From Verrucomicrobiota bacterium (lineage in GTDB: Bacteria; Verrucomicrobiota; Verrucomicrobiia; Chthoniobacterales; UBA10450), in the NCBI GenBank assembly GCA_003218375.1, contig QHNH01000009.1:62001-126000 (forward strand): DNA of 64,000 nt, in the 5' to 3' direction. Positions 11,564 through 25,754 of the stretch are shown here, piece by piece. Made by a program: the position numbers and the translations under genes. Below the pieces are notes generated by a model. It saw nothing but the letters and a program-made list of their open reading frames with translations, was not told the DNA's origin and did no database searches. Position 1 is the first letter of the stretch, and each line of letters starts with the position of its first letter.

Positions 11564-14500
11564 CTATTTCAGGTTGTAAATCTCGACGAGCGCAATGCCG
11601 ATACCGCCGTTCTTGCCGGCGACGATGGCGGTGAATTGTCCCGGCGGCGCCAGCGACGTGAAGATGCCGGATTCCTTCGGATCGGGCAGGGCCAGTCCGT
11701 TGGCGGTGAGTTGAGCCGCCGCGGTCGGGTCGCTCTGCCAATCGTCGTTCGAGATCATGATGGTGCCATTCGCGTTGTGCAACTCGAGGGTCGGATCGGC
11801 CAGCACGTTGCTCAGGCCGATGCCGGATAACGACGGACCGAGAGCGCGCACCGCGATCCGAGTCGGGAGATTGTTTCCCCCGAGAACAAACCCGCCGATC
11901 ATCACTTCGTTGCCGGTCCGGACAAAACCGCGGGTGCTGATGTTCGCCAAAGCGGAATCGACCGCCTGGTTGTTATCATAGACTTCAACCAGACCGATGC
12001 CGGTTGTTTGGCCGACGCCCTTCAGAATGACGGTGTAGGCCGCGGGCGGCAAGGTCGCCAGGATCACAGATTCGCGATCGTCCGTCGGCTGGAAGACCGT
12101 GCCCTCGATCTGCGCCTTCTGCGGACTGTCTTTCCAGTTGTCATTTGAGGTAATCAAGGCGCCGCTCGCTCCATGCAATTCCAGGACCGGATCGTTCAGG
12201 ACCGACGCGGCCGGCAGTCCAGCATTGACCAGCGAAGGCCCGATGCCGCGGAGCACAACCGGCTTGGCGACGTTACCGGTAATGATGAAGCCGCCGATCA
12301 TCACCTTATCGCCGACATCGACGCGCAACCGGGTCGAGATGTTCAAGGCTTGGGCGGGCGTGACGGTAGGTGTAGCTGTCGCCGTAGCCGTCGGCGTGGC
12401 GGTTGCTGTAGGTGTAGCGGTGGCCGTAGCTGTAGCCGTCGGCGTAGCGGTGGCGGTGGCCGTTGCTGTGGCCGTAGGTGTAGCGGTTGGCGTGGCCGTT
12501 GCCGTCGGAGTCGGCGACGGCGTTGTTCCGATAACAGTCAAGGTAAAGCTCTGGTTCACTGTCGCCGTTACGCCATTGTTGGCGCCGATCGTAAACGGCC
12601 AGGTGCCGCCGGTAAGTGGCCCGGGTATGCCGGACAAAGTCGCGGTGCCATTGTTGTTATTCACGAAGGTCACCCCTGCCGGGAGATTGCCAGTGCGCGT
12701 GATCGACATGCTCGAGTTAGTCGGGAACCCGGTGGTCGTGACCGTGAACGTGCCAGGCGAGCCTTCGGTGAAGGTCGTGTGGTCCGCGCTCGTAAACGCC
12801 GGGCCCTGCAACACCGTCAGGGTAAAGCTCTGGGTCGCGTCCGGCGAGATGCCGTTGCTGGCCTTGATCGTGATCGGATAAGTCCCGCCCGTGTTCGCGT
12901 TCGGTGTTCCAGACAAGGTCGCAGTGCCGTTGTTGTTGTTCACGAAGGTTACTGTCCCGGGCAACGCACCCGTTTCCGTAATAACCATGCTCGCGTTCGT
13001 CGGGAATCCCGTCGTGGTAATGGTGAACGTGCCGGCCGTGGCAACCTTGAAGGTCGCGTTGTTCGCGCTGGTGATGGCGGGCGGCTGGCCTACTGTGATG
13101 TTCGCCGTGCCGGTAATGGTGTTAGTCACCGTATCGGTCGCGGTAATGCTCTGGTTGCCGCCCGTGACCAGCGTCGCGCTAAAGGTGTGGGCGCCGTTGT
13201 CCCCGGCCAGGAAGGTGTAGTCCCCTGGCACGGCCGAGCCCGCGCCGGCGTCGGACTTGGTGAAGTGCACCGTCCCACCATAACTGGTGGCGGTGTTATT
13301 GAACTGATCCAGCGCCATGACCGTGAAGTTGAAAGCGTTATTGGGCAGCACGGAGGCCGGCGCTACCAGACCCAGGTGCGTCGCGTTACCGGCACTGACA
13401 TTGATGTTGGCGCTCGTCCCATTGATGCCAGCATTGACCGAGTCCGTCGCCGTGATCGTCTGGTTCCCCACCGTCTTTAACGTCGCGCTCAAGGTCTTAG
13501 TTCCATTATCACCAGCCAGGAACTGGTAGTTCACCGGCAACGCGGCCTGGGCATCGGTGCTCGTGAACTTGGCCGTGCCCAGGTAGCCAGTCGCGACGTT
13601 ATTAGCCGCGTCGAGCGCCGTTACAACAAAGTTAAACGCATTGCCCGCTGTCGCGCTCGCCGGTGCGCTCACTGAGAAATGCGTCGCCGCGCCCGGGGAG
13701 ACCGAGATGTTGCCGCTCGTGCCGCTGATGGCGTTGTTATTGACGTCGGTAGCCGTGAGCGTCTGCGTGCCCGCGGTATTAAGCGTGGCGCTAAACATGA
13801 ACGAACCGGCGTCGCCGGCATTAAAGGTGTGATCACCCGGCAGACTGGCCGCGCCGTCGGTGCTGGTAATGTGCACCTGTGCCGCAAAATTGACGTCGAC
13901 GTTGTTAAACTGATCCAGAGCCGTAACCGTAAAGCCGAAAGAGCTGCCGGACGTCGCACTCGCGGGAGCGACGACCGACAGATGCGTCGCGGTCGCCGCA
14001 CTAACATTGACGTCAGCGTGGCCGTTGATGGTATTAGTGACTGTGTCGGTCGCGGTGACCGTCTGCGTGCCCGACGTCACAAAGGTCACGCCATTCGTGA
14101 AGGTGTGCACGCCGGCATCGGCGAGGGTAAAGGTGTAATCCCCCGGAACGGACGAGCCTGCGCCTGCGTCGGTCTTGGTGAAGTGGACTGTGCCGGTGTA
14201 GTTTGTGTCGGTGTTACCCGCGGTGTCGAGCGCTGTCACCGTGATGGTGAACGGTGAGCCCGCGGTAGCGTTCGCCGGCGCCGTGACCGTGAAGTGCGTT
14301 GCCGGGCCCGCGGTATTAGTCAGCGAGAAATCAGCCGGACCATTATATCCAGTCGCGGTCGCGGTAACCGTATAAGGACCGCCCACGGTGTTACTCGCGG
14401 TAGCATTGATCGTGGCTATGCCGCTCGCATTCGTGGTCGCTGGGTTAGTTCCAGACAGGGTGGCGGTGGGTTCGCTGGCCGGAGCCGTGAAGGTAACGGA

Positions 14501-17500
14501 AACACCGCTGATAAAAGTAACTCCGGACTCAGATACGGTCGCCTGGAGCGGGTTAGCGAAAGCCATTCCGACTATGGTGCTTTGCGGCGTTCCCGCCGTC
14601 GCTGCGATCATGTAGTTCGCCTCAACCGCGCCGATGTCCACTGTAGTATTCACTACGCGCGGGAAACCTGGGCCGCGCTGATCCACCGGCAGTGGCTCGG
14701 CGACGTTTGCATCGTTATCCAAATCGAAGGTGTCCGCGGGCAAGAGCGCGTTACTGCCGTTGTTGATCGCGAGGCCGCCAAGCACAGGCAGATGCGTCTG
14801 AGTCGGACCTCCGTTATTCCCCAGCGTCGTGTTGATTACGGTGCTGGTATCGAGCGTGCCCGTGCCCGCATTGCCGACGATATTGCCGTGGGCTGGGTCA
14901 GTGCTCTTGTCAGTGAGCCCGCCGGCAGTCGCCGAGTCGCCAACTAAGTTGAACGAGCTGGAAGAATTGACTGCGCCTTGGATGTCGTCTGCAGTCGTGC
15001 CTGTGCCGACGAAGTTACCGGCAACGATCGTGTTATTAAGGGTGACCGGCGCTCCACTGGGATTAGAATAGAGACCGCCGGCAGTGCCGCCGTTGTCATC
15101 CGAGTCGGCGCGATTTTGCGTAATGGTGACGTTGGTCAGCGTGGCGTTGCCGCCAAAATAGTTGTAAATCCCGCCCCCATCGGTCTTGCACGTGTTACCG
15201 CTCACCGTGCTGTTAACCATCTCCAGGGTGCCGCCTTCGTTGATAATACCGCCGGTGTGCTGGTCCGCCGAATTGCCACTGATCGTGCTGTCAAGAATCG
15301 TGAGCGTCGCGCCAGACCTGTTGTATATCCCGCCGATAGCGTTGGTAGCGTGATTACTAGAAATGCTGCTGCCGCGGATCGTTAGGGTGCGATTATCAGC
15401 ATTGAAAATAGCACCGCCGTAATCAGCCGTATTCCCGGTGATACTACAGAAGTTCAGCGTGAGCGTACCGTCGCTGGCGATACCACCGCCGTCATCCCCA
15501 ACTACTTTGCCATTAGCGATGGTCAGTCCAGAGATGGTCACCGTCTTTGCAGCCTGGACCTCGAACACACGGCTCGCGTTATTACCGCTGACGGTGATTA
15601 CCGAAGCGCCCGGCCCGGTGATCGTGACGTTCTTATCAACCAACAGCTCGCCAGTTGTCAGCGTGATTGTTCCGGTAAGTGCAGCTTGGAAGTTAATTGT
15701 CGCGCCGTCACAGACGTCGAGCAACGCCTGGCGCAGCGAACCGGCGCCGCTGTCGTTCAGGTTGGTGACCGTGGCCGGATTAGCGCAGGCGAGGACGGTC
15801 TGCGAAACCGTGTTGGAAGTGGAACCAAGGTAATTCGCGTCGCCGTTGTAGGTGGCGGTGATCGAATGCGGTGAGCCGGCTACGGTCAATGTTGAAGTCG
15901 TGCAGGTTGCCACGCCGCTGCTCAACGGCTGGATGCTCGTGCTGCCTTCGTCGCACGTAATCGGCGTCGCCCCATCGAAAAAGGTCGCCGTTCCCGTAGG
16001 TGTCCCGGGAGGCGCCCCCACCGGGCTAACTGTCGCGGTAAAAGTAACTGCGAATCCGTTGGAGGAAGGATTCTGCGATGAGATCAGGTTCGTGCTTGTG
16101 GCCTGCTTGATAACGACCGTGTAGGCCTGTGAACCGGTAGCTCCCACGGTGTCAGTCGCGGTGACGGTGAAGTTATAGGATCCCGGTGTGTTCGGCGTGC
16201 CTGAGATCACCCCGCTGTTGGCGTCCAAGGTCAGCGGCGGCGGCAAGGTTCCGGTAAAGCTGAAGGTCTTCGTCCCCGTGCCGCCACTGGCCGTCTCAGT
16301 CTGGCTATAGGGAGTGCCGACCTGGCCGGCCGGCAATGTCGCTGGACCCACTATGATCGCAGCGTTAATCACGATCTGGTAAGCCTTCGACGTGTTAGCT
16401 CCGAGACTATCGGTTGCCTTGATCGTAAAGTTGAAGGTGTTCGCCACCGTCGGCGTCCCGCTGATTTCGCCCGTGCCGGCATTGAGACTCAGGCCGTTCG
16501 GTAGGCTGCCGACACTCACGGAGTAGGCGATGGCGCCGGTTCCGCCCGTGGTCACGATCGTTTGACTGTAACCCGGGAAATCCTTGGTCCAGGCGGCCAG
16601 CGGACTGTTTGTAGTGAAGGCTATTGCGTCCGCTACCGTGATCGTGAACGCCGTGGTGTCGAAGGTCCCCGCCGTATTCGTGGCCCGGACCATAAGTCCC
16701 GAGAATGTTCCAGCCGTCGTTGGATTGGCGGCAGCCAATGCGCCCGCCGAGCTTAGCGAGAAGCCACCGGGTAGTGCATTACCGACAGACGTATAAGTGG
16801 GCGCCGGGAACCCATTCGCGATAAAGTTATAGCCGGCATAAGCGAAGCCCACCGTTGCCTTGTCCGGCGGCGTCTGGGCACTGAACAACGTCGGCGGAAT
16901 GTGCACTGGCACACTGGTGGCGTTGGTGTTCACCGTGCTGAAGTTGCTGCCGGAAATATTTGCAGTGTTAGTGATGTTCCCGCCGCCAAAGCCGGCGTTG
17001 ACCGTCGCATCGAATTTCATCGTCACGGTGGTGCCGGGATTCAACGTGCCGATGGTTACGGGTAACCCGAGGAAGTGGCTTCCGGTGACACTGCCCGGGA
17101 TAGCACCTTTCGCCTGACCCTTGGACGGCAGACGCCGCTCGCCCTTGGTCAGGAAGCCATACATCAGGCTGTCGCGATCCTTCTCCGCGTAGGAATCCGG
17201 CAGCCCGATCGCATGGCCCATCTCGTGCAGGATGGTCGTGAGTAGGTCGAGATGACCGGCCGGCGCGCCCGCCGGATCGGTGTAGCGGCGGGTGGCGGAG
17301 GTTTCCTTCGCAAAGAGCGATTCGCCCTGGCCGCCGCCATCAATGAACCAACCGTTGCCCCCGGCATTGTTATCAACCCGAATGCGATAACCGTCCGCTT
17401 CGCCCAGATAAATACTCGGCAGGTCGGCGACTTCAAATTTCAACTTCTGGAGCGCGGCAGACTGCTCGGTCGTTAGACCCGTGGCTTCCCAGCGCGCTCG

Positions 17501-20500
17501 CGCCGCAGCGACCACCTGATCCAGTTGACCTTGGGAAACCGCGCCTCGATCCTGAGCTGGAGCTGCCATTTCGGCGACCGCCGCAGGAGCGATAACCGGC
17601 GCGACGACCTTTGCCGCCACTGCGGCGGTTGTTGAATTACTGCCTGCCTTCGCCTTCGGGGAAACCGGGTTCTGTCGTTCGATTCCGCCTGGCGCGAGCA
17701 TCAAGGGCGGCAGGGTGCAATTGACGTTGGTGTAGTTAACGACCGTGCCGGCGCCAGCGGTGACGATCTTGCCCGCAACGGCATCTGTGCTGGCCACGTA
17801 GCTCTCGACGTTTGCGGAGTTCGTCCCGCTGCCGGTTAAGCCCTGGATGTTGAAGGTCGTGTTGGTGTACTGCTCGAGGAAGTAGTCGGCAAATTTTGAC
17901 GCGTTATCTGCGTGAATGTTGTTCTTCGTTACCGTCGAGAAGTTAACGCAGGTGTGGTTAGTCTCACCGCCAGTATTGTTACCTGCGAAGAACCACGTCC
18001 CGGCACTCTTCGCCGTCTGAACAGTGTTACCCTTAATCGTCAACTGCGCCGAGCCACTTCCCGCACGAGCGCCGCCGCGAATGCCATAGTCGAACGCTGT
18101 GGTTGTATTGATGCCGCTACCGGTTCCCTGGATTGTGTTGTTCTCAACATTCGCGATGATCGAACCGTTGCCTTCCTCCACGATATTGATGCCTTGGCCC
18201 GGGTTGTTCGTGATGTTGGTAGCGAGCGTGTTTCCCTTGATGGTTCCCGTCAACGACGCCGTCCCGGTCACCGCGATGTTGATCCCGACGCCCTGCCGAG
18301 CCGTGGCGACGTTATTCTCCAAGTCGAACGTTCCAGCACCAGTCGTAGACGAGATATTGATCGCCGACTGTCCAACACCCCCTCCGGTCGTGCTGGTAAA
18401 AGTGCATCCAGTAATAGTTGCGTCGAAACGCGCCGAAGCGCCGCTCACGTCAACCTGGATACCGTCCGAAGTGTGCGCTCCGGCGTACTCACCGTTGATT
18501 TTTGAATCAAAGGTTGCGCCGTTAACTACGACTTGGAAGTTAGCCGCGACAGAGTTGAAGATGGAGATATGATCGCCGATCACATTTTTGCCGCTATTGG
18601 CAAAGGTGCATCCGTTCTGAATTGTCAGCTTGTCCTTCTCGCTCCCCGCGGCGTTCGTCCCCGAAGCGTTAATGATCGAGACGTTGAACTGGGCGGTGTC
18701 GCTGATATCCACGTTATCCCAGACGCTGTCCTGGCTCGCCGAAGCGAGACCTTTCAGGTGAAACAGATAGATGCCCGACTCCCACACCGCATCGCCGGTA
18801 TTGCTAATGCTGACATTGGTCAGATCCAGATTGGTAACATTGTTTCCATTGATGCCGTGCTGCACGGTGGTGCCGAGGATGATGATGTTACTCAGGTTTA
18901 CATTGACGGCTGCGGACAGGTTTATCGCTCCATTCTCGTCAGTATTCTCGTTGCCGCCGACCGTGCCGTTGGATACCGCACCGTTGGCGTTGTTGGCATT
19001 CAAGAACCTCATCAATGTGAGGTTCACGTTCCGCGCGCCGATAAAGCTCGCCCCTCGAGCGTTAGTGCCCTGAATCGTGCCGCCAGTGCACGTCGGAGTT
19101 GCTACCGTGCAAGAGCCTCCGTTGCCTGTCACCGTCAGGCCGCCGCTCGATCCGGTCGTGTCGAGAATAATGCCGTTTGCGGGTAGCGTGTTATTACCGG
19201 TTACCGAAATGCTGCGGAAGGTCAGGCCGCTTGAGCCGATGGTGGTGTTAGCAACATTGAGTGCCGTGCCTGTCGTCGTAGTGATGGTATTGACCACTGC
19301 GCTGCCCCCAGCGCAATCGTTCGTCGCGCAAACGTTGACGACTCCGCCGTTGGTCGCGGTGAACGCGGGATTTGTCGTGGTCGTCAGGCTCAATCCACCC
19401 CGGAAGGTAATCGTCGCGGTACTGCTCAGGTCGTTATTATCGAGGAAAATGCCGGTGCCGCCGGCAGTCTCGGTGATCGCGGCGGGGAAGGTCACCGACC
19501 CGCCCGTCATGTTCGTCACGTTGACTGAGTGGCCGGCATTGTTCGTGATCGCGCTGGCAATAAAGATTGTCGCATTTCCGCCGCTCACGAGCACATCATC
19601 GCCCGAGACGCCGCTGATCGTGCCGCTGCCGTTGATCGTGAAGGTGCCGGCAACGTTGACAAGCTGAATGCCGATCCCGGTGAAGCTGCTCGTGCCGGCG
19701 CTGTCGATCGTCACGCTGAGCGTGCCGCCGGAATCAGCGCGGAACAGTCCGCCGGTTCCGTTCATCGTTACGTTCGAAATCGTTAACGTCCCGACTGTCG
19801 CAGTCGTGGTATTGGCAATTTTATAGTTGGTCGTGTTTCCGATGGTGAATCCGGTGACCGTGTTGCCGCTCGCCAAGGTGATTGCGTTTGTGGTTCCGCC
19901 GGTTGTAACAAAAGTCGTATTCGTCCCGGCGGTATTAATTACGATCGTGTTGACCGTGAGATTGGCGCCGCTGCCGTAAAGCAATTGGTTGTTCAACAGA
20001 GTCAGGCCGCCGTCGTAGGAAGCGACGGTGTTCTTCACAAAAATGATGTCGCCCGCGGCGTCCGGACCGGTGGCGCCGGAGATATCCGCCAGAGAATTAA
20101 AAGGCCTTGTATTGGAGCCATCTTCGGCGCCATTCGCGCCGGCGTAGGTGCCGTCCACATACCAGACCCGCGCGCCCAGTATGATGCTCACCAGGCCCGT
20201 GCTCGGCAGGCTGTCGGTATCGGTGACCGTATAGCTAAAGGTGTCGGTCAGGTTCTGGTCGCCGGTTTGCGGAGTGTAGGTAAAGGAACCATTGCTGTTG
20301 ATCGTTACGCTGCCGCCCGCGCTGGTCGCGAAAGTGCCGGTCGTAAGAACGAGACTGGCGTCCGGGGTGACGCCATCGATGTCGTGAACGCCGTTCAACA
20401 CCCCGGCGGCCGCGTTGACCACCAACTGGGTGTTGCCCGCCGCGTTGTAGCTATGCGCGATCGCGTTCGGCGAAACTTTGGCCGAGTTACCCACGAAGGT

Positions 20501-20917
20501 AGAATTGGGGTCGACCGTATCCGCGACCTGCACACCGGTCGCATCGCCAGCCGCGGCTGCACTGTTTACCACCGAGATCGTGTAGGTGATCGTGTCGCCC
20601 GGGCGGGCCGAGCTGTCGTTGTTCGGCGGGAAGGCAGCCGACTTCGTGCCCGTCACTCCGACCGGCGCAGCGGTTGCCAACGAAGGCAGGGCGACCATGC
20701 CGGCGAAGGCGAGCGCCAGCGCAAAGGCGCACCGGCGCGCCGGAACATAGGCATTCCTGCCTGTGCGCCCAGCGGACATTTTGTCTGCTGCGTTTGTTAC
20801 AGCGGAGTTTAACTCCGCTGGGCGCACAGACTGAAAGTCTATGTTCCGAATGGTGGCAGCGAGCCTCCAGAAGCGGACGGTCATTCGATCAAGCAGGGAG
20901 GGAAGGTGAGTTTTCAA
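11564..20917 (-). CDS. Giant multidomain surface protein: beta-helices, metzincin-like protease motif, Ig repeats
   Basis: 3117 codons. The frame opens at a TTG (20917); ATGs at codons 12 and 47 are alternatives. The signal peptide core is at residues 64-83 (FALALAFAGMVALPSLATAA). Then follow a DUF11/cadherin-like region (~85-245), a long right-handed beta-helix (~250-1070), a metzincin-type motif HEMGHAIGLPD (H1231, E1232, H1235, D1241) with a Met-turn-like SLMYG, three putative-Ig modules (~1346-1600), a Big_3-like domain, a second beta-helix of CSLREA/choice-of-anchor type (~1709-2100), four tandem ~100-aa Ig-like repeats (~2202-2607), two further Ig modules, a Pro/Thr/Ala linker (~2797-2852) and a duplicated ~130-aa C-terminal domain. 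It is likely a cell-surface or secreted adhesin/scaffold. The N-terminal 24-59 region is encoded by an interspersed repeat. Confidence 0.85.
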   Translation of the reverse strand: MKTHLPSLLDRMTVRFWRLAATIRNIDFQSVRPAELNSAVTNAADKMSAGRTGRNAYVPARRCAFALALAFAGMVALPSLATAAPVGVTGTKSAAFPPNNDSSARPGDTITYTISVVNSAAAAGDATGVQVADTVDPNSTFVGNSAKVSPNAIAHSYNAAGNTQLVVNAAAGVLNGVHDIDGVTPDASLVLTTGTFATSAGGSVTINSNGSFTYTPQTGDQNLTDTFSYTVTDTDSLPSTGLVSIILGARVWYVDGTYAGANGAEDGSNTRPFNSLADISGATGPDAAGDIIFVKNTVASYDGGLTLLNNQLLYGSGANLTVNTIVINTAGTNTTFVTTGGTTNAITLASGNTVTGFTIGNTTNYKIANTTTATVGTLTISNVTMNGTGGLFRADSGGTLSVTIDSAGTSSFTGIGIQLVNVAGTFTINGSGTISGVSGDDVLVSGGNATIFIASAITNNAGHSVNVTNMTGGSVTFPAAITETAGGTGIFLDNNDLSSTATITFRGGLSLTTTTNPAFTATNGGVVNVCATNDCAGGSAVVNTITTTTGTALNVANTTIGSSGLTFRSISVTGNNTLPANGIILDTTGSSGGLTVTGNGGSCTVATPTCTGGTIQGTNARGASFIGARNVNLTLMRFLNANNANGAVSNGTVGGNENTDENGAINLSAAVNVNLSNIIILGTTVQHGINGNNVTNLDLTNVSISNTGDAVWESGIYLFHLKGLASASQDSVWDNVDISDTAQFNVSIINASGTNAAGSEKDKLTIQNGCTFANSGKNVIGDHISIFNSVAANFQVVVNGATFDSKINGEYAGAHTSDGIQVDVSGASARFDATITGCTFTSTTGGGVGQSAINISSTTGAGTFDLENNVATARQGVGINIAVTGTASLTGTIKGNTLATNITNNPGQGINIVEEGNGSIIANVENNTIQGTGSGINTTTAFDYGIRGGARAGSGSAQLTIKGNTVQTAKSAGTWFFAGNNTGGETNHTCVNFSTVTKNNIHADNASKFADYFLEQYTNTTFNIQGLTGSGTNSANVESYVASTDAVAGKIVTAGAGTVVNYTNVNCTLPPLMLAPGGIERQNPVSPKAKAGSNSTTAAVAAKVVAPVIAPAAVAEMAAPAQDRGAVSQGQLDQVVAAARARWEATGLTTEQSAALQKLKFEVADLPSIYLGEADGYRIRVDNNAGGNGWFIDGGGQGESLFAKETSATRRYTDPAGAPAGHLDLLTTILHEMGHAIGLPDSYAEKDRDSLMYGFLTKGERRLPSKGQAKGAIPGSVTGSHFLGLPVTIGTLNPGTTVTMKFDATVNAGFGGGNITNTANISGSNFSTVNTNATSVPVHIPPTLFSAQTPPDKATVGFAYAGYNFIANGFPAPTYTSVGNALPGGFSLSSAGALAAANPTTAGTFSGLMVRATNTAGTFDTTAFTITVADAIAFTTNSPLAAWTKDFPGYSQTIVTTGGTGAIAYSVSVGSLPNGLSLNAGTGEISGTPTVANTFNFTIKATDSLGANTSKAYQIVINAAIIVGPATLPAGQVGTPYSQTETASGGTGTKTFSFTGTLPPPLTLDANSGVISGTPNTPGSYNFTVTATDTVGATGSQAYTVVIKQATSTNLISSQNPSSNGFAVTFTATVSPVGAPPGTPTGTATFFDGATPITCDEGSTSIQPLSSGVATCTTSTLTVAGSPHSITATYNGDANYLGSTSNTVSQTVLACANPATVTNLNDSGAGSLRQALLDVCDGATINFQAALTGTITLTTGELLVDKNVTITGPGASVITVSGNNASRVFEVQAAKTVTISGLTIANGKVVGDDGGGIASDGTLTLNFCSITGNTADYGGAIFNADNRTLTIRGSSISSNHATNAIGGIYNRSGATLTILDSTISGNSADQHTGGIINEGGTLEMVNSTVSGNTCKTDGGGIYNYFGGNATLTNVTITQNRADSDDNGGTAGGLYSNPSGAPVTLNNTIVAGNFVGTGTTADDIQGAVNSSSSFNLVGDSATAGGLTDKSTDPAHGNIVGNAGTGTLDTSTVINTTLGNNGGPTQTHLPVLGGLAINNGSNALLPADTFDLDNDANVAEPLPVDQRGPGFPRVVNTTVDIGAVEANYMIAATAGTPQSTIVGMAFANPLQATVSESGVTFISGVSVTFTAPASEPTATLSGTNPATTNASGIATINATASNTVGGPYTVTATATGYNGPADFSLTNTAGPATHFTVTAPANATAGSPFTITVTALDTAGNTDTNYTGTVHFTKTDAGAGSSVPGDYTFTLADAGVHTFTNGVTFVTSGTQTVTATDTVTNTINGHADVNVSAATATHLSVVAPASATSGSSFGFTVTALDQFNNVDVNFAAQVHITSTDGAASLPGDHTFNAGDAGSFMFSATLNTAGTQTLTATDVNNNAISGTSGNISVSPGAATHFSVSAPASATAGNAFNFVVTALDAANNVATGYLGTAKFTSTDAQAALPVNYQFLAGDNGTKTLSATLKTVGNQTITATDSVNAGINGTSANINVSAGNATHLGLVAPASVLPNNAFNFTVMALDQFNNTATSYGGTVHFTKSDAGAGSAVPGDYTFLAGDNGAHTFSATLVTGGNQSITATDTVTNTITGTANITVGQPPAITSANNATFKVATAGTFTITTTGFPTNASMVITETGALPGTVTFVNNNNGTATLSGTPNANTGGTYPITIKASNGISPDATQSFTLTVLQGPAFTSADHTTFTEGSPGTFTVTTTGFPTNSSMSITRTGNLPAGVTFVNNNNGTATLSGIPGPLTGGTWPFTIGANNGVTATVNQSFTLTVIGTTPSPTPTATATPTATPTATATATATATPTATATATATPTATATPTATATATPTVTPAQALNISTRLRVDVGDKVMIGGFIITGNVAKPVVLRGIGPSLVNAGLPAASVLNDPVLELHGASGALITSNDNWKDSPQKAQIEGTVFQPTDDRESVILATLPPAAYTVILKGVGQTTGIGLVEVYDNNQAVDSALANISTRGFVRTGNEVMIGGFVLGGNNLPTRIAVRALGPSLSGIGLSNVLADPTLELHNANGTIMISNDDWQSDPTAAAQLTANGLALPDPKESGIFTSLAPPGQFTAIVAGKNGGIGIALVEIYNLK
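12362..12522. repeat. Hexamer-type microsatellite encoding a Pro/Thr/Ala linker
   Basis: Degenerate 6- and 12-base units of the form GTNGCN/GTAGGN repeat for about 160 bases and encode an alternating T-A-T-P stretch in the giant surface protein. Such tracts act as flexible stalks between the Ig region and the C-terminal domain and are prone to length change. Confidence 0.75.
13095..14310 (-). repeat. Four tandem ~300-bp units encoding Ig-like modules
   Basis: Within the giant gene, four consecutive modules start with an ATHF/L-type motif (GPATHFTVTAPANATAG, TATHLSVVAPASATSG, AATHFSVSAPASATAG, NATHLGLVAPASVLPN). They share the later signatures VTALD, GDYTF or GDHTF, and TVTATD or TLTATD. Unit length is near 100 codons. 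The DNA copies are similar enough to allow recombination. Confidence 0.8.
20741..20848. repeat. Palindromic interspersed repeat lying in frame at the 5' end of the giant gene
   Basis: A 108-bp element bounded by CGGAACATAG and CTATGTTCCG. Both arms carry CTGTGCGCCCAGCGGA, in inverted orientation, around a nested hairpin AGCGGAGTT/AACTCCGCT. Smaller hairpins (AGGCA/TGCCT and GACT/AGTC) lie in each arm. The length is exactly 36 codons. On the minus strand it reads NIDFQSVRPAELNSAVTN and onward, a phrase I recall from many mis-annotated small ORFs in Verrucomicrobiota, consistent with a dispersed REP/MITE-like family. Confidence 0.75.
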
Positions 20918-21015: not shown

Positions 21016-22023
21016 TCAGGCCTGCGGTTTCAGTTCCGGCGATTGGAAAGCCGTTTCAATCTTCGACGCGCTATCGAACGCTTCCCGCCAGTGGACATCT
21101 TCCAGCAGCGCCGCGTCGATCCAGCCGCGCGTGTCCTTCTTCACCTGCTTGCCCAGCACCACGTAAAGCCAGACCGCGCCGTCCGAATACGATTGGCCGA
21201 AAATCTCCCGAACCCGGTCGAATTCCCCGATTGCCTGCTTCGCCGTCAGGCCGAGCGCCCCTTTGATCGCGCTCGAAATCAGCGGCGTCGCGACCGCGCT
21301 TTTCACGTCATCAGTTCCCGCCAGGGCCGCGAACGCCGGCAGGCCGCGCACAAAGGCGGCCGCGATCGGATACGCCGCTTTCGAAGTCGCCGTCGATTTC
21401 ACCAGCTGCGCCTTCCATTTCACAAAATCTTCGCCTTCCGGCAGCGCCGCCGCCCGCGCGTCTCCCGTTCCGCGCATCGCGACCGCCAGCGCCTCCGGCG
21501 TTTTCGCCGGACGATTCACCAGCTTCAGCTCGCCGGCGCTCACGGCTGCGAGCGGATCGTCGATCTGCTTCGCGATCGGATCGTAGCTGAGCGCATCGTG
21601 CGCGAAGAAGACATTGTCCTTGCTGCTCAACTGCGCGAGCCGCCTCGCGAAATCGCCCGCGGAAAGATTCTCGATCACATGCCCGCTGCCCTGCGCCACG
21701 AACGAAACCGAATTCTCCTTGGCGTAAAACTTCTTGAACGGCGCGCGCAGGAGCGCGTCCGCCGCCTTCATGAAATCGGTCACCTGCACGAGCGCGTGAA
21801 TGCCGGAGCCGCTCTCCGGCCGGAGATGCCCGAGGACGGAAGCGCCGGTCAGCCTAACGACCGAGCTGTAGGTCGAGACGAAATCGAGGAGATGCAGCTC
21901 CGTCGCGTCGAACGAAAGAACGCCGGGCGTTTTCTCGAACGCAAAAAGCGAGCGGGGACGGAGGAGGCCGCCGCACACCAGCAACGATCCGACACGAAGA
22001 AAAGAGCGGCGGTCGGAGATCAT
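21016..22023 (-). CDS. Exported hypothetical protein with Tat-like signal
   Basis: 335 residues. The N-terminus MISDRRSFLRVGSLLVCGG has the twin-arginine pattern RRSFLR before a hydrophobic stretch, suggesting Tat export after folding. The mature part is largely alpha-helical with no cysteine pair or metal motif I can identify; it contains EGEDFVKWKAQLVKSTAT and a helical C-terminus. No named family is recognised. The interval between this gene and the giant surface protein is only about 100 bases, so they could be co-transcribed, this gene being downstream of the repeat region on its right. Confidence 0.65.
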   Translation of the reverse strand: MISDRRSFLRVGSLLVCGGLLRPRSLFAFEKTPGVLSFDATELHLLDFVSTYSSVVRLTGASVLGHLRPESGSGIHALVQVTDFMKAADALLRAPFKKFYAKENSVSFVAQGSGHVIENLSAGDFARRLAQLSSKDNVFFAHDALSYDPIAKQIDDPLAAVSAGELKLVNRPAKTPEALAVAMRGTGDARAAALPEGEDFVKWKAQLVKSTATSKAAYPIAAAFVRGLPAFAALAGTDDVKSAVATPLISSAIKGALGLTAKQAIGEFDRVREIFGQSYSDGAVWLYVVLGKQVKKDTRGWIDAALLEDVHWREAFDSASKIETAFQSPELKPQA

Positions 22024-22347: not shown

Positions 22348-22374
22348 ACCGCGTCCTTCGTGTGAGATTCTTCC

Positions 22375-22671
22375 ATGCTGGAGCTGGATAAAGTTGAGTG
22401 CGAACAATTCGCCGCCTGCCTCAATCAGGATTTTGAGATCGTCTTCCCTGACGGGACGCTCCCCCTGAAACTTTCCGAGGCGCACCCGCTCGGCGCCCGG
22501 CCCGAATCAGTTCGCGAGCCGTTCGCTCTAACTTTCCTGGGTCGCGCGGGACTTCGTTTGCCACAAGGCATCTACAAAATGCGCAACGCCACGCTCGGCG
22601 AGATGGAAATTTTCCTCGTCCAGATCGCTGTCGATCAAACCAGAAGCACCTTCGAAGCTGTCTTCAATTAA
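22375..22671 (+). CDS. DUF6916-like small protein
   Basis: 98 residues, no signal and no membrane helix. The C-terminal half with PFALTFLGRAGLRLPQGIY, then LGEMEIFLVQI and a final FEAVFN, matches what I recall of the DUF6916 family, small proteins usually encoded beside phage-tail-collar (MdpB-like) proteins. Here three collar genes lie 1.4 kb to the right on the other strand, separated by a GNAT gene and a transposase. The function is unknown; association with a tail-like or surface structure is inferred. Confidence 0.65.
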   Translation: MLELDKVECEQFAACLNQDFEIVFPDGTLPLKLSEAHPLGARPESVREPFALTFLGRAGLRLPQGIYKMRNATLGEMEIFLVQIAVDQTRSTFEAVFN

Positions 22672-22676
22672 GAGGC

Positions 22677-22890
22677 CTCACACAAAGGTCACAACGGATC
22701 ACAACGGTTTTTAGGCAGGAATCCAATCCTTCCTGTCCCTTTGTGTCCTTTGTGTGAAATCAGGTTCCCCACCGCGGCAGCAGAATTAGGATCTCGCACA
22801 ACGGACACAAAGGAGCACAAAGGATTTCTTTTGGTGCCAGATCACAACTTTACTTCCCTTCGTGTCCTTTGTGACCTTCGTGTGAGGTCC
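22677..22890. repeat. Two inverted pairs of the CACAAAGG repeat family
   Basis: CTCACACAAAGGTCACAACGG (from 22677) pairs with TTTGTGTCCTTTGTGTGA (to about 22758). A second pair runs from GGACACAAAGGAGCACAAAGG (22803) to TTCGTGTCCTTTGTGACCTT and CGTGTGAGG (to about 22890). The second copy overlaps the 3' end of the GNAT gene and encodes its last 12 residues. A further copy is at 25755-25920. Confidence 0.7.
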
Positions 22891-23353
22891 CGTTTCCTCT
22901 CCATTCCATCAACAAATAGACGCCTTTATCCTCAATCTGCTTGAATCCGAGCCGCTGATATAATTGCAGGGCGCGATTGAAACGCTCGACGTGAATCGTG
23001 AGCGACTTGCCAGCTGAACGCGCTTCGTCCCGTAAATCGCGCAGGAGTTCCGTGCCGATACCGCCGCCGCGAAATTCCGGGAGCACCGTGATGTCGACAA
23101 TCCGAATCTCTTTTTCCCAGCGGACGACGTAAAGCCGGCCGATGGGCACGCCGTCGCGCTCGATCACTTGGAACGATGCCCCGGGATAATTGACGGAATA
23201 GTAGGCGGTCTGCGCATCGAACTGCTTCCGGCAAAAAATTTCCTTCTGCTCATCACTCCAACCGGTTGGCGCCAGCTCTTCCGCGCGACTGCTCGCATAA
23301 ACTCGCGCGAGAAATGCCGTGTCCTCCGGAGTTATTGGTCGGAGTGAAATCAT
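22850..23353 (-). CDS. GNAT-family N-acetyltransferase
   Basis: 167 residues from the ATG at 23353 (MISLRPITPEDTAFLARVY); the longer frame upstream reads through a REP element and is rejected. GNAT features: acidic/arginine N-terminal strand, the acetyl-CoA pyrophosphate-binding segment VLPEFRGGGIGTELLRDL (R/Q-x-x-G-x-G/A pattern), then the C-terminal YQRLGFKQIEDKG motif. The substrate is unknown; the enzyme is small and cytosolic. Its last residues, SHEGHKGHEGK, are repetitive and come from a palindromic repeat that overlaps the stop codon, so the native C-terminus was probably MEWRG or close to it. Confidence 0.85.
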   Translation of the reverse strand: MISLRPITPEDTAFLARVYASSRAEELAPTGWSDEQKEIFCRKQFDAQTAYYSVNYPGASFQVIERDGVPIGRLYVVRWEKEIRIVDITVLPEFRGGGIGTELLRDLRDEARSAGKSLTIHVERFNRALQLYQRLGFKQIEDKGVYLLMEWRGNGTSHEGHKGHEGK

Positions 23354-23387
23354 CGTGAATTGCGCGCTTGCCGCGCGAGGTCTGTTT

Positions 23388-23505
23388 GGTGGATCGAGCG
23401 CTCCGCCGCTCGATGGCAATTAAATGCCGGCAAGGCCGGGAAACAACAGGCATCGCGCGTCGGAGCGCGCGATCCACCTAAACGCTCGCGCGCTCGATCC
23501 ACCAC
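23388..23505. repeat. REP/BIME-like element on the 3' side of the RAYT gene
   Basis: A 91-bp unit starts GGTGGATC and ends GATCCACC (23388-23478). It contains hairpins ATCGAGCG/CGCTCGAT (23393-23414) and ATCGCGCG/CGCGCGAT (23452-23473) around a GC-rich centre. A further partial unit, CGCTCGATCCACC on this strand, runs to about 23505 and forms the last codons of the transposase. It is the same family as 23943-24031. Confidence 0.8.
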
Positions 23506-23996
23506 GGCCAGTTCTCAGCTTTCGCGCACAGACCAGCCACGACCGGATTTTGCCGAATGTAATTGATCTTGGCCGAGAGCTGTTCGCCGCGCTCATCGTC
23601 TCGCAATCGATGGTCGAAATACCCCTCCTGCCAGATGATTCCGTGCCTGTGCGATTGGAAATGCTTCCATCCGCCAATGGCTCGGCTCATGGATTCATCC
23701 CTTTGGAACGACAGCAGCGCGCGGAGATGATCGGGCATCAAGAGGAATGCCGTGGTGTACCAGCGATACTCTGATTCATAATACTTCGCCGAGTCCAGCA
23801 ATGACTCGGCAATCGATGGCGTGGTCAGCGCTGCTTGTTGCTTCTTGCGATCAATCGCGATGCGGATGTGAAAGAGAGCGCCAGGTTCCACCCAATCGGG
23901 CACGCCATGGTAAAGTTTGGCTGGAAATCCGCGGTAGAGAATGGTGGATCTAGCGCTCCGACGCTCGATGTTTGTTCGACGCGGCTTTGCCGCCAT
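23478..23996 (-). CDS. REP-associated tyrosine transposase (RAYT, Y1_Tnp family)
   Basis: 172 residues. RAYTs are single-strand HUH endonucleases related to IS200/IS605 TnpA and are linked to spread of REP palindromes. Visible family features: the opening GVPDWVEPGALFHIRIAI, AFLLMPDHLRALLSF at the HUH position, the GWKHFQSHRHGIIWQEGYFDHRLR segment and the catalytic-tyrosine helix KINYIRQNPVVAGL, then ENWPWW. The HUH motif reads D-H-L-R, so the second histidine is arginine (codon CGC) and activity is doubtful. The ATG (23996) and the final codons lie within flanking REP sequences. An internal GTG at the GVPDW motif is an alternative start. Confidence 0.82.
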   Translation of the reverse strand: MAAKPRRTNIERRSARSTILYRGFPAKLYHGVPDWVEPGALFHIRIAIDRKKQQAALTTPSIAESLLDSAKYYESEYRWYTTAFLLMPDHLRALLSFQRDESMSRAIGGWKHFQSHRHGIIWQEGYFDHRLRDDERGEQLSAKINYIRQNPVVAGLCAKAENWPWWIERASV

Positions 23997-24031
23997 TATT
24001 TGTCATCGCGCGACGGAGCGCGCGATCCACC
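23943..24031. repeat. REP/BIME-like element on the 5' side of the RAYT gene
   Basis: An 89-bp unit starts GGTGGATC and ends GATCCACC, with hairpins AGCG/CGCT (one mismatch further out), GCGGC/GCCGC and ATCGCGCG/CGCGCGAT. It matches the unit at 23388-23478 in ends, order and spacing and lies in the same orientation. The RAYT start codon is inside it. Confidence 0.8.
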
Positions 24032-24056
24032 TACATCACGTCACTCGTCACTCCCG

Positions 24057-24578
24057 TTATGTCCTCGGCGGAAAGACGCCTTGCAACGCGATGCAGAAAC
24101 TCAGGGTCAGGTACGGCTGCATGTTGTTGTGCGGCTGGTCGCCGCCCGTGGGCGCCAGGGCCTGATCGGACATTGCGACGATGGGCAGCCCGGCGGGGGG
24201 GAGATACGTATTCGCGGACCCGCGCGCGATCGAATTACCGGACGGAGTTTTGCTGTTCGCCGGTAAATTCGCAGCCATGAAGTTGTGTGGGTGCGATGGC
24301 ATCTCCGACTCGAGCAATGTCACAAACTGCGTGCCGCCCGTTTCTCCCAGATCATGGAGGGAAAGGCCCGGTCCCTGGCCGGGATGCATCGGCGCGTTAC
24401 CCTGCATGTTCGGTAAGGCGAAGTTCGACTTTCCGTCGCCACCGTAGGTGGTCCCGAGGAGCGAGAAGAGCGCGGTGTTTTGCGACAACGGCAGGAGCTG
24501 GCCATCGCAAAACGCCCAGCCTTTGGGAGCGAAGTTGAAGGGGAAAATTCGAATTTCAGCTACGAATGGGTCTGCCAT
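24057..24578 (-). CDS. Phage tail collar (MdpB-like) protein 3
   Basis: 173 residues from the ATG at 24578, preceded by a good AAGGAG ribosome site. It has the microcystin-dependent-protein/tail-collar layout: an N-terminal collar with FAPKGWAFCDGQLLPLSQN, LLGTTYGGDGKSNFALPNMQG, a histidine-bearing middle (GGTQFVTLLESEMPSHPH) and the C-terminal signature NMQPYLTLSFCIALQGVFP. Such proteins form receptor-binding tips of phage tails and are also found in many genomes as stand-alone triplets. It is the third gene of a three-gene tandem, 10 bases after the second. Confidence 0.88.
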   Translation of the reverse strand: MADPFVAEIRIFPFNFAPKGWAFCDGQLLPLSQNTALFSLLGTTYGGDGKSNFALPNMQGNAPMHPGQGPGLSLHDLGETGGTQFVTLLESEMPSHPHNFMAANLPANSKTPSGNSIARGSANTYLPPAGLPIVAMSDQALAPTGGDQPHNNMQPYLTLSFCIALQGVFPPRT

Positions 24579-24588
24579 AATGTTCTCC

Positions 24589-25092
24589 TTAGGTTGGGGA
24601 CGGGAAAATCCCGAAGAGCGAAATGATGAAATCGACGCACAGATACGGTTGAAAATTCGTATGCGGCTGGCTCCCACCTGTGGGCGAAATCGATTGCGCC
24701 GCCAGCGGTGTGTTGCCCGCTCCCGGACGATATAAATCAGGCACGGTCGGTGTCGCGAGGACAGTGCCTTGGGGCGTGGTTTGTGAAGCTGTGGCCGACG
24801 ATGCCAGCATCGGATGGGAGTGAGCCGGGATCTGGTTTACCGTCAGCGTGATCTCTTCCGCGCCTCCGGTTTCAGCCAAAGTGAAACCATTCCCTTGATG
24901 GATTGGCAAGCGACCCCGCAGATCCGGCAGCGCGAACGTGGATTCGCCGTCGCCCCCATACGTGGTGCCGATCAGCTGAAACAACGTTTCGTTTTCCGAG
25001 ATCGGCAGCAATTGCCCCTCGCAAAACATCCAGCCAGCGGGCGCAAAGTTGCCCCCGAACATTCTGATTTCACCGACGTAAGGTTGTGCCAT
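24589..25092 (-). CDS. Phage tail collar (MdpB-like) protein 2
   Basis: 167 residues starting MAQPYVGEIRMFGGNFAPAG. It has the same layout as its neighbours: GWMFCEGQLLPISENE, LIGTTYGGDGESTFALPDLRG, then NQIPAHSHPM, PTGGSQPHTNFQPYL and a final FIISLFGIFP. It is the most divergent of the three paralogues, which suggests subunits of one structure with different roles and not a recent duplication. Spacing to both neighbours is about 10 bases, so the three form an operon. Confidence 0.88.
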   Translation of the reverse strand: MAQPYVGEIRMFGGNFAPAGWMFCEGQLLPISENETLFQLIGTTYGGDGESTFALPDLRGRLPIHQGNGFTLAETGGAEEITLTVNQIPAHSHPMLASSATASQTTPQGTVLATPTVPDLYRPGAGNTPLAAQSISPTGGSQPHTNFQPYLCVDFIISLFGIFPSPT

Positions 25093-25101
25093 GATTTTCT
25101 C

Positions 25102-25611
25102 CTAAGTTTGCGACGGGAAGATTCCCTGGAGCGCGATGCAAAAACTCAGCACCAAAAACGGTTGCATGTTCAAATGGGCCTGGCTGCCGCCGGTGTTACT
25201 CACCGTGGCGGCATTCAGGGCGACCAATTGGGATGGCGCAGCGTAGATCTCCGCCGGGCCGGCACAGAGAAGATTCCCGGTGGGTATGTTGGTGCCGTTG
25301 GGATCGCTGCTGGTCGACGTTCCATTCACGACATGAACGTGGGTCGGCAATTCTGCAATCGAGAGAGTGTGCGCCTGCTCGCCCCCTTTTTCGCCCAGAG
25401 TGAATCCCTGACCCATGTGAATCGGGACATTTCCCTGAAGGTTCGGCAGGCCAAAGTTCACGCGTCCGTCGCCGCCGTAGGTGGTGCCGAGGAGTGAAAA
25501 GAGCGCCTGGTTCTGATTGATCGGCAACAGTTGCCCGTTGCAGAGCGCCCAGCCTTTCGGCGCGAAAACGAAACTCATGATTCTTATTTCGGAAAGGAAA
25601 GGTTCAGCCAT
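25102..25611 (-). CDS. Phage tail collar (MdpB-like) protein 1
   Basis: 169 residues starting MAEPFLSEIRIMSFVFAPKG. It carries the collar motif GWALCNGQLLPINQNQ, LLGTTYGGDGRVNFGLPNLQG, the histidine segment AELPTHVHVVNG and the C-terminal NMQPFLVLSFCIALQGIFPS. It is the first gene of the three-gene set on the minus strand. In other genomes such triplets accompany DUF6916 genes, and a DUF6916-like gene is found at 22375. Whether it is a phage relic or a cell-surface module is not decided by sequence. Confidence 0.88.
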   Translation of the reverse strand: MAEPFLSEIRIMSFVFAPKGWALCNGQLLPINQNQALFSLLGTTYGGDGRVNFGLPNLQGNVPIHMGQGFTLGEKGGEQAHTLSIAELPTHVHVVNGTSTSSDPNGTNIPTGNLLCAGPAEIYAAPSQLVALNAATVSNTGGSQAHLNMQPFLVLSFCIALQGIFPSQT

Positions 25612-25754
25612 GGTGGGTAATTCGGTTGAGGTTTAGCGAGGGACCGTCAGGCTAGCGATTTGAGGATGCAGGGATCAAGGAGGTTAAATAGGGGTTAGGG
25701 AGAGTGTTCTAAACGCCCGCGCCAAATCCTGTCCAGCTTTTTTTTGGGAAAAAA

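Follow-up and report, generated by a model that had tools for sequence, protein, structure and literature searches.

The giant gene and its neighbourhood

The window, that is, the whole 64-kb stretch of DNA that was analysed, carries on its minus strand the gene for a giant secreted protein of a soil bacterium. The gene and its recognizable parts are as follows.

11564..20917, minus strand: giant secreted protein of 3117 aa, with a TTG start and in-frame ATG codons at residues 12 and 47
20666..20737, minus strand: signal-peptide-like hydrophobic stretch, residues 61-84, read off the sequence alone
20477..20620, minus strand: DUF11, first half, residues 100-147 (profile positions 9-54 of 114, 28.2 bits)
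20183..20434, minus strand: Big_9 Ig-like domain, residues 162-245 (Pfam)
17714..20170, minus strand: right-handed beta-helix, about residues 250-1068 (from an alignment with the relative L060; edges approximate)
17681..17710, minus strand: PPLMLAPGGI motif, residues 1070-1079, directly past the beta-helix; putative cleavage or latency segment
17537..17680, minus strand: variable Ala/Pro/Val-rich linker, residues 1080-1127
17096..17536, minus strand: metzincin domain, about residues 1128-1274, with HEMGHAIGLPD at 1231-1241 and Met at 1252
16916..17077, minus strand: DUF11, second half, residues 1281-1334 (profile positions 62-109 of 114, 27.5 bits)
15794..16354, minus strand: He_PIG (residues 1522-1603) and Big_3_5 (1613-1708), both Ig-like (Pfam)
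14618..14827, minus strand: choice-of-anchor Q domain, residues 2031-2100 (NCBIfam)
11564..12370, minus strand: two-unit C-terminal domain without a Pfam match, with 82 match places in the genome, partial ones included

When the whole protein was compared with Pfam, He_PIG, Big_3_5 and Big_9 scored above their cut-offs and DUF11 was returned as two stretches at 20.4 bits (cut-off 24.6). The two-unit domain at the C-terminus is possibly a sorting or anchoring domain. It lies in the same open frame as two of the three M10 proteases that pass the cut-off in this genome (L001 and L002), and just downstream of the third (L003), in other frames.

A 111-base palindrome (20738-20848, minus strand) runs in frame through the signal-peptide region of the giant gene, contains an in-frame ATG and folds as RNA at -67 kcal/mol. 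It has at least 79 matches in the genome, on both strands and spread over about 40 places, with 40 of the 81 candidates scored. Close to it lies a Y1-type transposase gene (23478-23996), which by its look we take to be of the REP-associated kind.

The tail-collar genes, the acetyltransferase gene and the DUF6916 gene listed below make up a conserved set at 22366-25632.

25105..25614, minus strand: tail-collar (PF07484) protein A
24592..25095, minus strand: tail-collar (PF07484) protein B
24060..24578, minus strand: tail-collar (PF07484) protein C
22850..23419, minus strand: GNAT acetyltransferase (Pfam), from an ORF cluster with members in 19 of the 27 loci examined
22375..22668, plus strand: DUF6916 (PF21880) protein (Pfam)

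The likeness of the three neighbours to known tail-collar domain proteins is a family match to PF07484, at 92-102 bits. Neighbourhoods were compared at 27 hand-picked loci, namely the window, 24 metzincin loci and two loci (in G380 and G271; that of G520 was excluded) at which the giant is encoded by two genes. Collar genes stand near the giant gene in 22 of these, amounting to 65 ORFs that are mostly in tandem: three in each of 21 loci and two in L058, which lies at a contig end. None was present in the stretch examined at L041, L043, L048, L050 and L056, some of these stretches being short. Orientation varies: at L055, L057, L068 and the two-gene loci the collars are either divergent or lie downstream. 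The genome of the window has exactly three collar matches, all at the giant-gene locus, and at least three occur in every one of the 11 genomes with a split DUF11 (below), compared with any collar at all in 45 of the other 373 genomes of the class. Tandem collars also adjoin other secreted-looking proteins, by eye, in L169, L170 and L172, and in L170 and L172 these are sets like the collar, GNAT and DUF6916 group of the window; the collars are therefore not tied to this giant alone. Those of L170 adjoin what appears by eye to be a relative of the protein encoded at 21016-22023 in the window, no such giant was seen near the collars of L171, and the collars of L173 look by eye to be of another type.

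The embedded metzincin

The first-pass annotation had read a metzincin-like site, with zinc ligands and a possible Met-turn near residue 1231, between the beta-helix and the Ig-like regions of the giant protein. That placement was right, as judged by Pfam and a matching model of L060, and the ligands and Met-turn are present, conserved and set in a predicted metzincin fold. HEMGHAIGLPD begins at residue 1231 (17227..17195 in the window) and SLMYG at residue 1250 (17170..17156). In six frames of the 64 kb the extended motif HExxHxxGxx[H/D] occurs once, here, and the six other HExxH strings found in a six-frame scan all lack the extension.

Conservation was assessed in a domain alignment (A3) of 61 sequences, comprising 49 of 80 fetched loci, 11 further loci (L026-L036, with L037 and L038 excluded) and the window; of the 31 fetched loci left out, eight were duplicates, near-duplicates or cut copies and the other 23, mostly cyanobacterial, had long inserts or an unusual layout. 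All 61 rows retain HExxH and 59 retain the Met; at the third-ligand place there is Asp in 44 rows, His in 13, Gly in three and Thr in one. Given that one of the two fetch patterns behind most of these rows includes HE[M/L]GH, the conservation of HExxH is in part a product of selection by the pattern itself. HExxH is found in 79 of the 80 fetched loci, and the remaining one (L061) is cut and ends before it. The third ligand is Asp throughout the 30-row group that holds the window domain, and changes between Asp and His occur eight times on the family tree, both by a quick tree with a weak backbone. The close relatives L062 and L063 differ in this ligand, His versus Asp, and a homologue from the same genus (L028) has some 15 additional residues following GWYVS within the domain, which may be a further inserted repeat.

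The model of the window domain built on the 61-row alignment has a mean pLDDT of 91.8 and a pTM of 0.87. In the VIA structure comparison its top-ranked matches were MMP-11 (Z 9.8, rmsd 2.9, 114 residues aligned), snapalysin 1kuh (Z 9.8, rmsd 2.6, 107 aligned) and karilysin (Z 9.7, rmsd 3.2, 114 aligned). Foldseek gave no match at E <= 0.001; its first nine rows were all MMPs, the best being MMP-12 at E 6.9e-3. The domain profile run against PDB sequences had karilysin on top (5.7e-4) and snapalysin next (0.002), and Peptidase_M10 (PF00413) scored 16.3 bits against the giant protein and 21.7 in the genome search, with a cut-off of 24. There was no M7 model among the matches of the Pfam scan of the giant protein.

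By its zinc motif, Met-turn and predicted fold, the domain at about residues 1128-1274 is a metzincin, and chance occurrence of HEMGHAIGLPD is ruled out by conservation and the predicted fold. Membership of the matrixins (PF00413/M10A) or of a serralysin-type family was considered and rejected. The comparison with these folds by structure prediction that the first-pass annotation proposed does return a metzincin fold, with Asp as third ligand in place of the His of those families; the domain is not a matrixin, since it scores below the Pfam cut-off and its third ligand is Asp. It resembles the matrixins (M10A, including karilysin and MMP-11) in fold and in having them as its best Pfam and best PDB profile match, but differs from them in the score and the ligand just named and in the linker, where no PRCGxPD was seen. 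PRCGxPD is the cysteine-switch motif, and latency of that kind was dropped because no switch was seen when the linker was searched by eye. Snapalysin has Asp as third ligand and is a free, secreted enzyme. The likeness to it (MEROPS M7; 1kuh, 4hx3) lies in the metzincin fold (Z 9.8), in HExxHxxGxxD and in a Met about ten residues on; however, the window domain is internal to a giant protein and has conserved GWFxD and GERRLP stretches of its own, whereas snapalysin is described in PMC3890501 as a small enzyme.

The module occurs once in this genome and in six of eight members of the genus; it was absent from the other 50 of 58 relatives, which lie outside the genus. Within the class, 13 of 384 genomes carry it at E <= 1e-6. 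When one genome per species was scanned and the best 80 of 90 relatives were used, it turned up in Verrucomicrobiota, Acidobacteriota, Planctomycetota, Pseudomonadota, Cyanobacteria and others, in giant proteins of many kinds and at varied positions; one carrier, Brevifollis gellanilyticus (L047), is in culture. In 20 of 79 relatives, most of them planctomycetes, no more than 60 aa separate the metzincin from the stop, although the frames of L101 and L114, which count among the 20, may be broken. At L055 (Mesorhizobium) it stands at the protein end, beside three collar genes and without a second DUF11 half, and at L035 it stands alone, just past a signal-like leader. Searches of viral contigs gave one and three weak relatives. 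Twenty plasmid records (H1-H20) from cyanobacteria, rhizobia and others carry partial matches to the module; their names include 'Ig-like domain-containing protein', 'polymorphic membrane protein' and one 'peptidase S8/S53', with no metalloprotease name among them in a gene table that is incomplete.

The two halves of DUF11 and the genes that separate them

Scanned as pieces, the two DUF11 stretches of the window protein each exceed the cut-off of 24.6 (28.2 and 27.5 bits) and cover complementary ranges of the profile; in the genome search they scored 23.3 (first half, under the cut-off) and 26.9 bits (second). Joined, they form one DUF11 stretch over positions 9-109 at 52.5 bits. Joined halves pass the cut-off in eight of ten proteins, with L027 at 17.9 bits and L029 without a match, and most halves of relatives taken singly stay below it or give no match. 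In the window protein some 1,130 residues separate the halves, and these hold Big_9, a tailspike-like beta-helix, a short conserved motif of the PLLFAPGGV type, the metzincin and, before it, the variable linker. In 12 of 14 proteins 55-57 aa separate the HE of the zinc motif from the second half; the spacer is longer in two Acidobacteria proteins (88 and 104 aa). L050 keeps both halves and the metzincin and has, by eye, Ig-like repeats in place of the beta-helix. Judging from the profile matches, an insertion of about 1,130 residues most likely interrupts a single Ig-like DUF11 domain, and the metzincin forms the C-terminal edge of that insertion. A model of DUF11 packing in the whole unit, made on the relative L060 and not on the window protein, has a pTM of 0.63 with low confidence in the second half.

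The beta-helix within this insertion was likewise modelled on L060, and that predicted fold matched tailspikes and polysaccharide lyases or epimerases with Z up to 24.6, the best match being a cyanophage tailspike at that value; the likeness to phage tailspikes and polysaccharide lyases is thus one of predicted right-handed beta-helix fold, in the relative L060. The core of the PLLFAPGGV-type motif, which was picked after the sequences had been inspected, occurs in 32 of 78 upstream regions, where shuffles gave 5.3. It is also present in L063, whose upstream domain is by eye a different one.

Two profiles were used to follow the arrangement across genomes, A5 for the N-terminal architecture, from metzincin-bearing proteins only, and A6 for the second DUF11 half, from 16 proteins, several of them within the sample; both were built largely from proteins of the surveyed set. 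Some A5 match occurs in 84 of the 384 genomes of the class, and among the matches listed it is near-complete in 11 (assembled from pieces in G005 and G007), the others listed covering mainly the Big_9 part. A6, at E <= 1e-5 in the same 384 genomes, picks out exactly the 11 with a near-complete A5 among the matches listed. Weaker second-half matches in a sample of the phylum (G450, G474, G538) and an extra one in G007 were considered as new splits, but these DUF11 domains proved to be unsplit. The same holds for the domain matched in G458, and the insert of that protein lies in another of its DUF11 domains.

In nine of the 11 genomes the metzincin and both DUF11 halves share one open frame, that of G006 running off its contig. 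In the other two, G380 and G271, there is no metzincin at this place and the halves are on two genes. The N-chain of G380 runs to just past the beta-helix (..GGVACPTP) and is followed by a gene that encodes a signal-like leader and the second half; in G271 the N-chain stops at ..CPRPLLPTP and three collar genes intervene before the leader and second half. A third case, G520, belongs to another class and came from a sample of the phylum in which nine of 387 genomes gave a match; here the N-chain ends ..SPCMTPP and is followed by leader and second half. As read by eye, each of the three N-chains terminates where the beta-helix ends, and in each C-chain the second half comes directly after the leader. 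A six-frame scan of the stretches fetched for these three loci found no HExxHxxG. When the pairs encoded in trans were joined in order, DUF11 scored 32.4, 30.5 and 27.8 bits, compared with 23.1, 23.2 and 20.3 when the halves were swapped. Elsewhere in its genome G271 has a distant metzincin (28.6 bits with the A3 profile, His ligand, 407-aa frame) and a marginal one, and G380 has a marginal match (17.6 bits, same profile); that profile found no metzincin in the G520 genome at E <= 0.01.

The tally is nine cases in one piece with the protease, three on two genes without it and none of any other combination of this architecture, for which a Fisher test by hand gives 1/220, or 1/35 with families counted once (4 versus 3). 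The nine fused genes represent few families, five of them coming from one genus, and the two-gene cases number three. This tally is support and not proof, given that the sequences are related, few and drawn from two samples.

In L202 (G569) and L203 (G458), unrelated DUF11 domains contain inserts of some 200 aa at this same loop, each in a single ORF with no HExxHxxG by eye. Inserts at the same loop in unrelated domains indicate that this loop is a natural insertion site, and DUF11 may be a general host for inserted domains. Such single-ORF, protease-free inserts also mean that a split in DUF11 does not in itself require a protease.

Proposed self-cleavage and the alternatives

The first-pass annotation had suggested self-cleavage or processing of the surface layer, and there is reason to think that the protease may act on the chain that carries it. 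Three relatives without a metzincin at this place encode its flanks as two genes, split just before it, which suggests self-cleavage. On the reading we prefer, and to which we would give an even chance, the metzincin cuts its own chain and the two resulting chains stay clasped by the split DUF11 as a processed surface fibre. Secretion would come first, followed by a cut made by the embedded, active-type metzincin in the flexible linker near the PLLFAPGGV-type motif, between beta-helix and protease. The N-chain product would comprise the first DUF11 half, Big_9 and the tailspike-like beta-helix, and the C-chain product the metzincin, the second DUF11 half, the Ig tail and the C-terminal domain, with the split DUF11 holding both chains in one assembly through strand complementation. 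In this way a one-piece gene would finally yield the pair of chains that is encoded directly in the two-gene versions. The computed basis for this mechanism consists of the fold, the conserved catalytic residues, the complementary DUF11 halves and their co-occurrence, and the two-gene versions without a metzincin. Catalysis itself, the cleavage site, the association of the two chains and the surface location of the giant protein we infer.

The protease-free DUF11 inserts of G569 and G458, together with the distant metzincins in the two-gene genomes, weaken the self-cut and clasped reading, and a universal self-cutting role for the module is disfavoured because the end-placed metzincin of 20 of 79 relatives leaves no second chain to separate. 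The fuller version, in which a surface fibre of self-cut, clasped chains is the secreted partner of the three collars and the GNAT and DUF6916 set, a set that several phyla share, is judged rather less likely than not.

It might also be supposed that this is an ordinary secreted digestive protease mounted on a surface scaffold, with targets outside the protein, a beta-helix that binds or cuts polysaccharide and a placement that is incidental. The spread of the module over many giant proteins, positions and phyla, its terminal place in a quarter or so of relatives (20 of 79) and the resemblance of the beta-helix to tailspikes and polysaccharide lyases or epimerases would all accord with such a role. 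However, the place of the metzincin in the split-DUF11 group is nearly fixed, and it is missing wherever the chain already consists of two genes; a digestive role is judged rather unlikely.

The conserved neighbours, with collars at 22 of 27 and the GNAT cluster at 19 of 27 loci examined, raise the further prospect of a protease that acts in trans on partners, whether other giants or collar-linked factors, and not on its own chain. The distant metzincins elsewhere in G380 and G271 leave room for this, but the loci of these two genomes retain three collar genes with no HExxHxxG, and we regard action in trans as improbable.

The weakness of single halves in several relatives and the uncertain whole-unit model could also mean that the DUF11-like stretches are not one domain, and that the chain came to be divided between two genes by neutral chance, at a linker that is flexible. 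Against this stand the complementary profile ranges, a gain on joining that depends on the order of the halves, and the co-occurrence of A5 and A6 in the same 11 of 384 genomes (for A5, among the matches listed), so that little credence is given to it. That the metzincin is a catalytically dead structural module is very improbable indeed: four of 61 rows have neither Asp nor His at the third-ligand place, but HExxH is present in 61 of 61, an Asp or His third ligand in 57 and the Met in 59, with Asp in every row of the 30-row group of the window.

Self-processing modules are familiar from large secreted proteins and from the GAIN-type two-chain adhesion proteins, in which autoprocessing yields two chains that remain associated. 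Those proteins use other folds and chemistries, whereas here a metzincin stands beside a split Ig-like domain. The metzincin fold and the idea of self-processing are thus already known; in the open-licence literature, as far as its partly available texts extend, no description was found of this domain, of DUF11 with proteases or of the collar set, nor of the arrangement as a whole.

The analysis reveals a metzincin module that here falls under the Pfam matrixin cut-off, with relatives in Verrucomicrobiota, Acidobacteriota, Planctomycetota, Pseudomonadota and Cyanobacteria, as well as a conserved collar-gene neighbourhood around the giant gene. An anonymous giant surface protein becomes a testable machine, with a predicted site, a two-chain product and natural protease-free controls. 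If the self-cut and clasped reading is true, it would represent a new way of building a surface fibre, in which a metzincin cuts its host chain and a split Ig domain clasps the pieces together.
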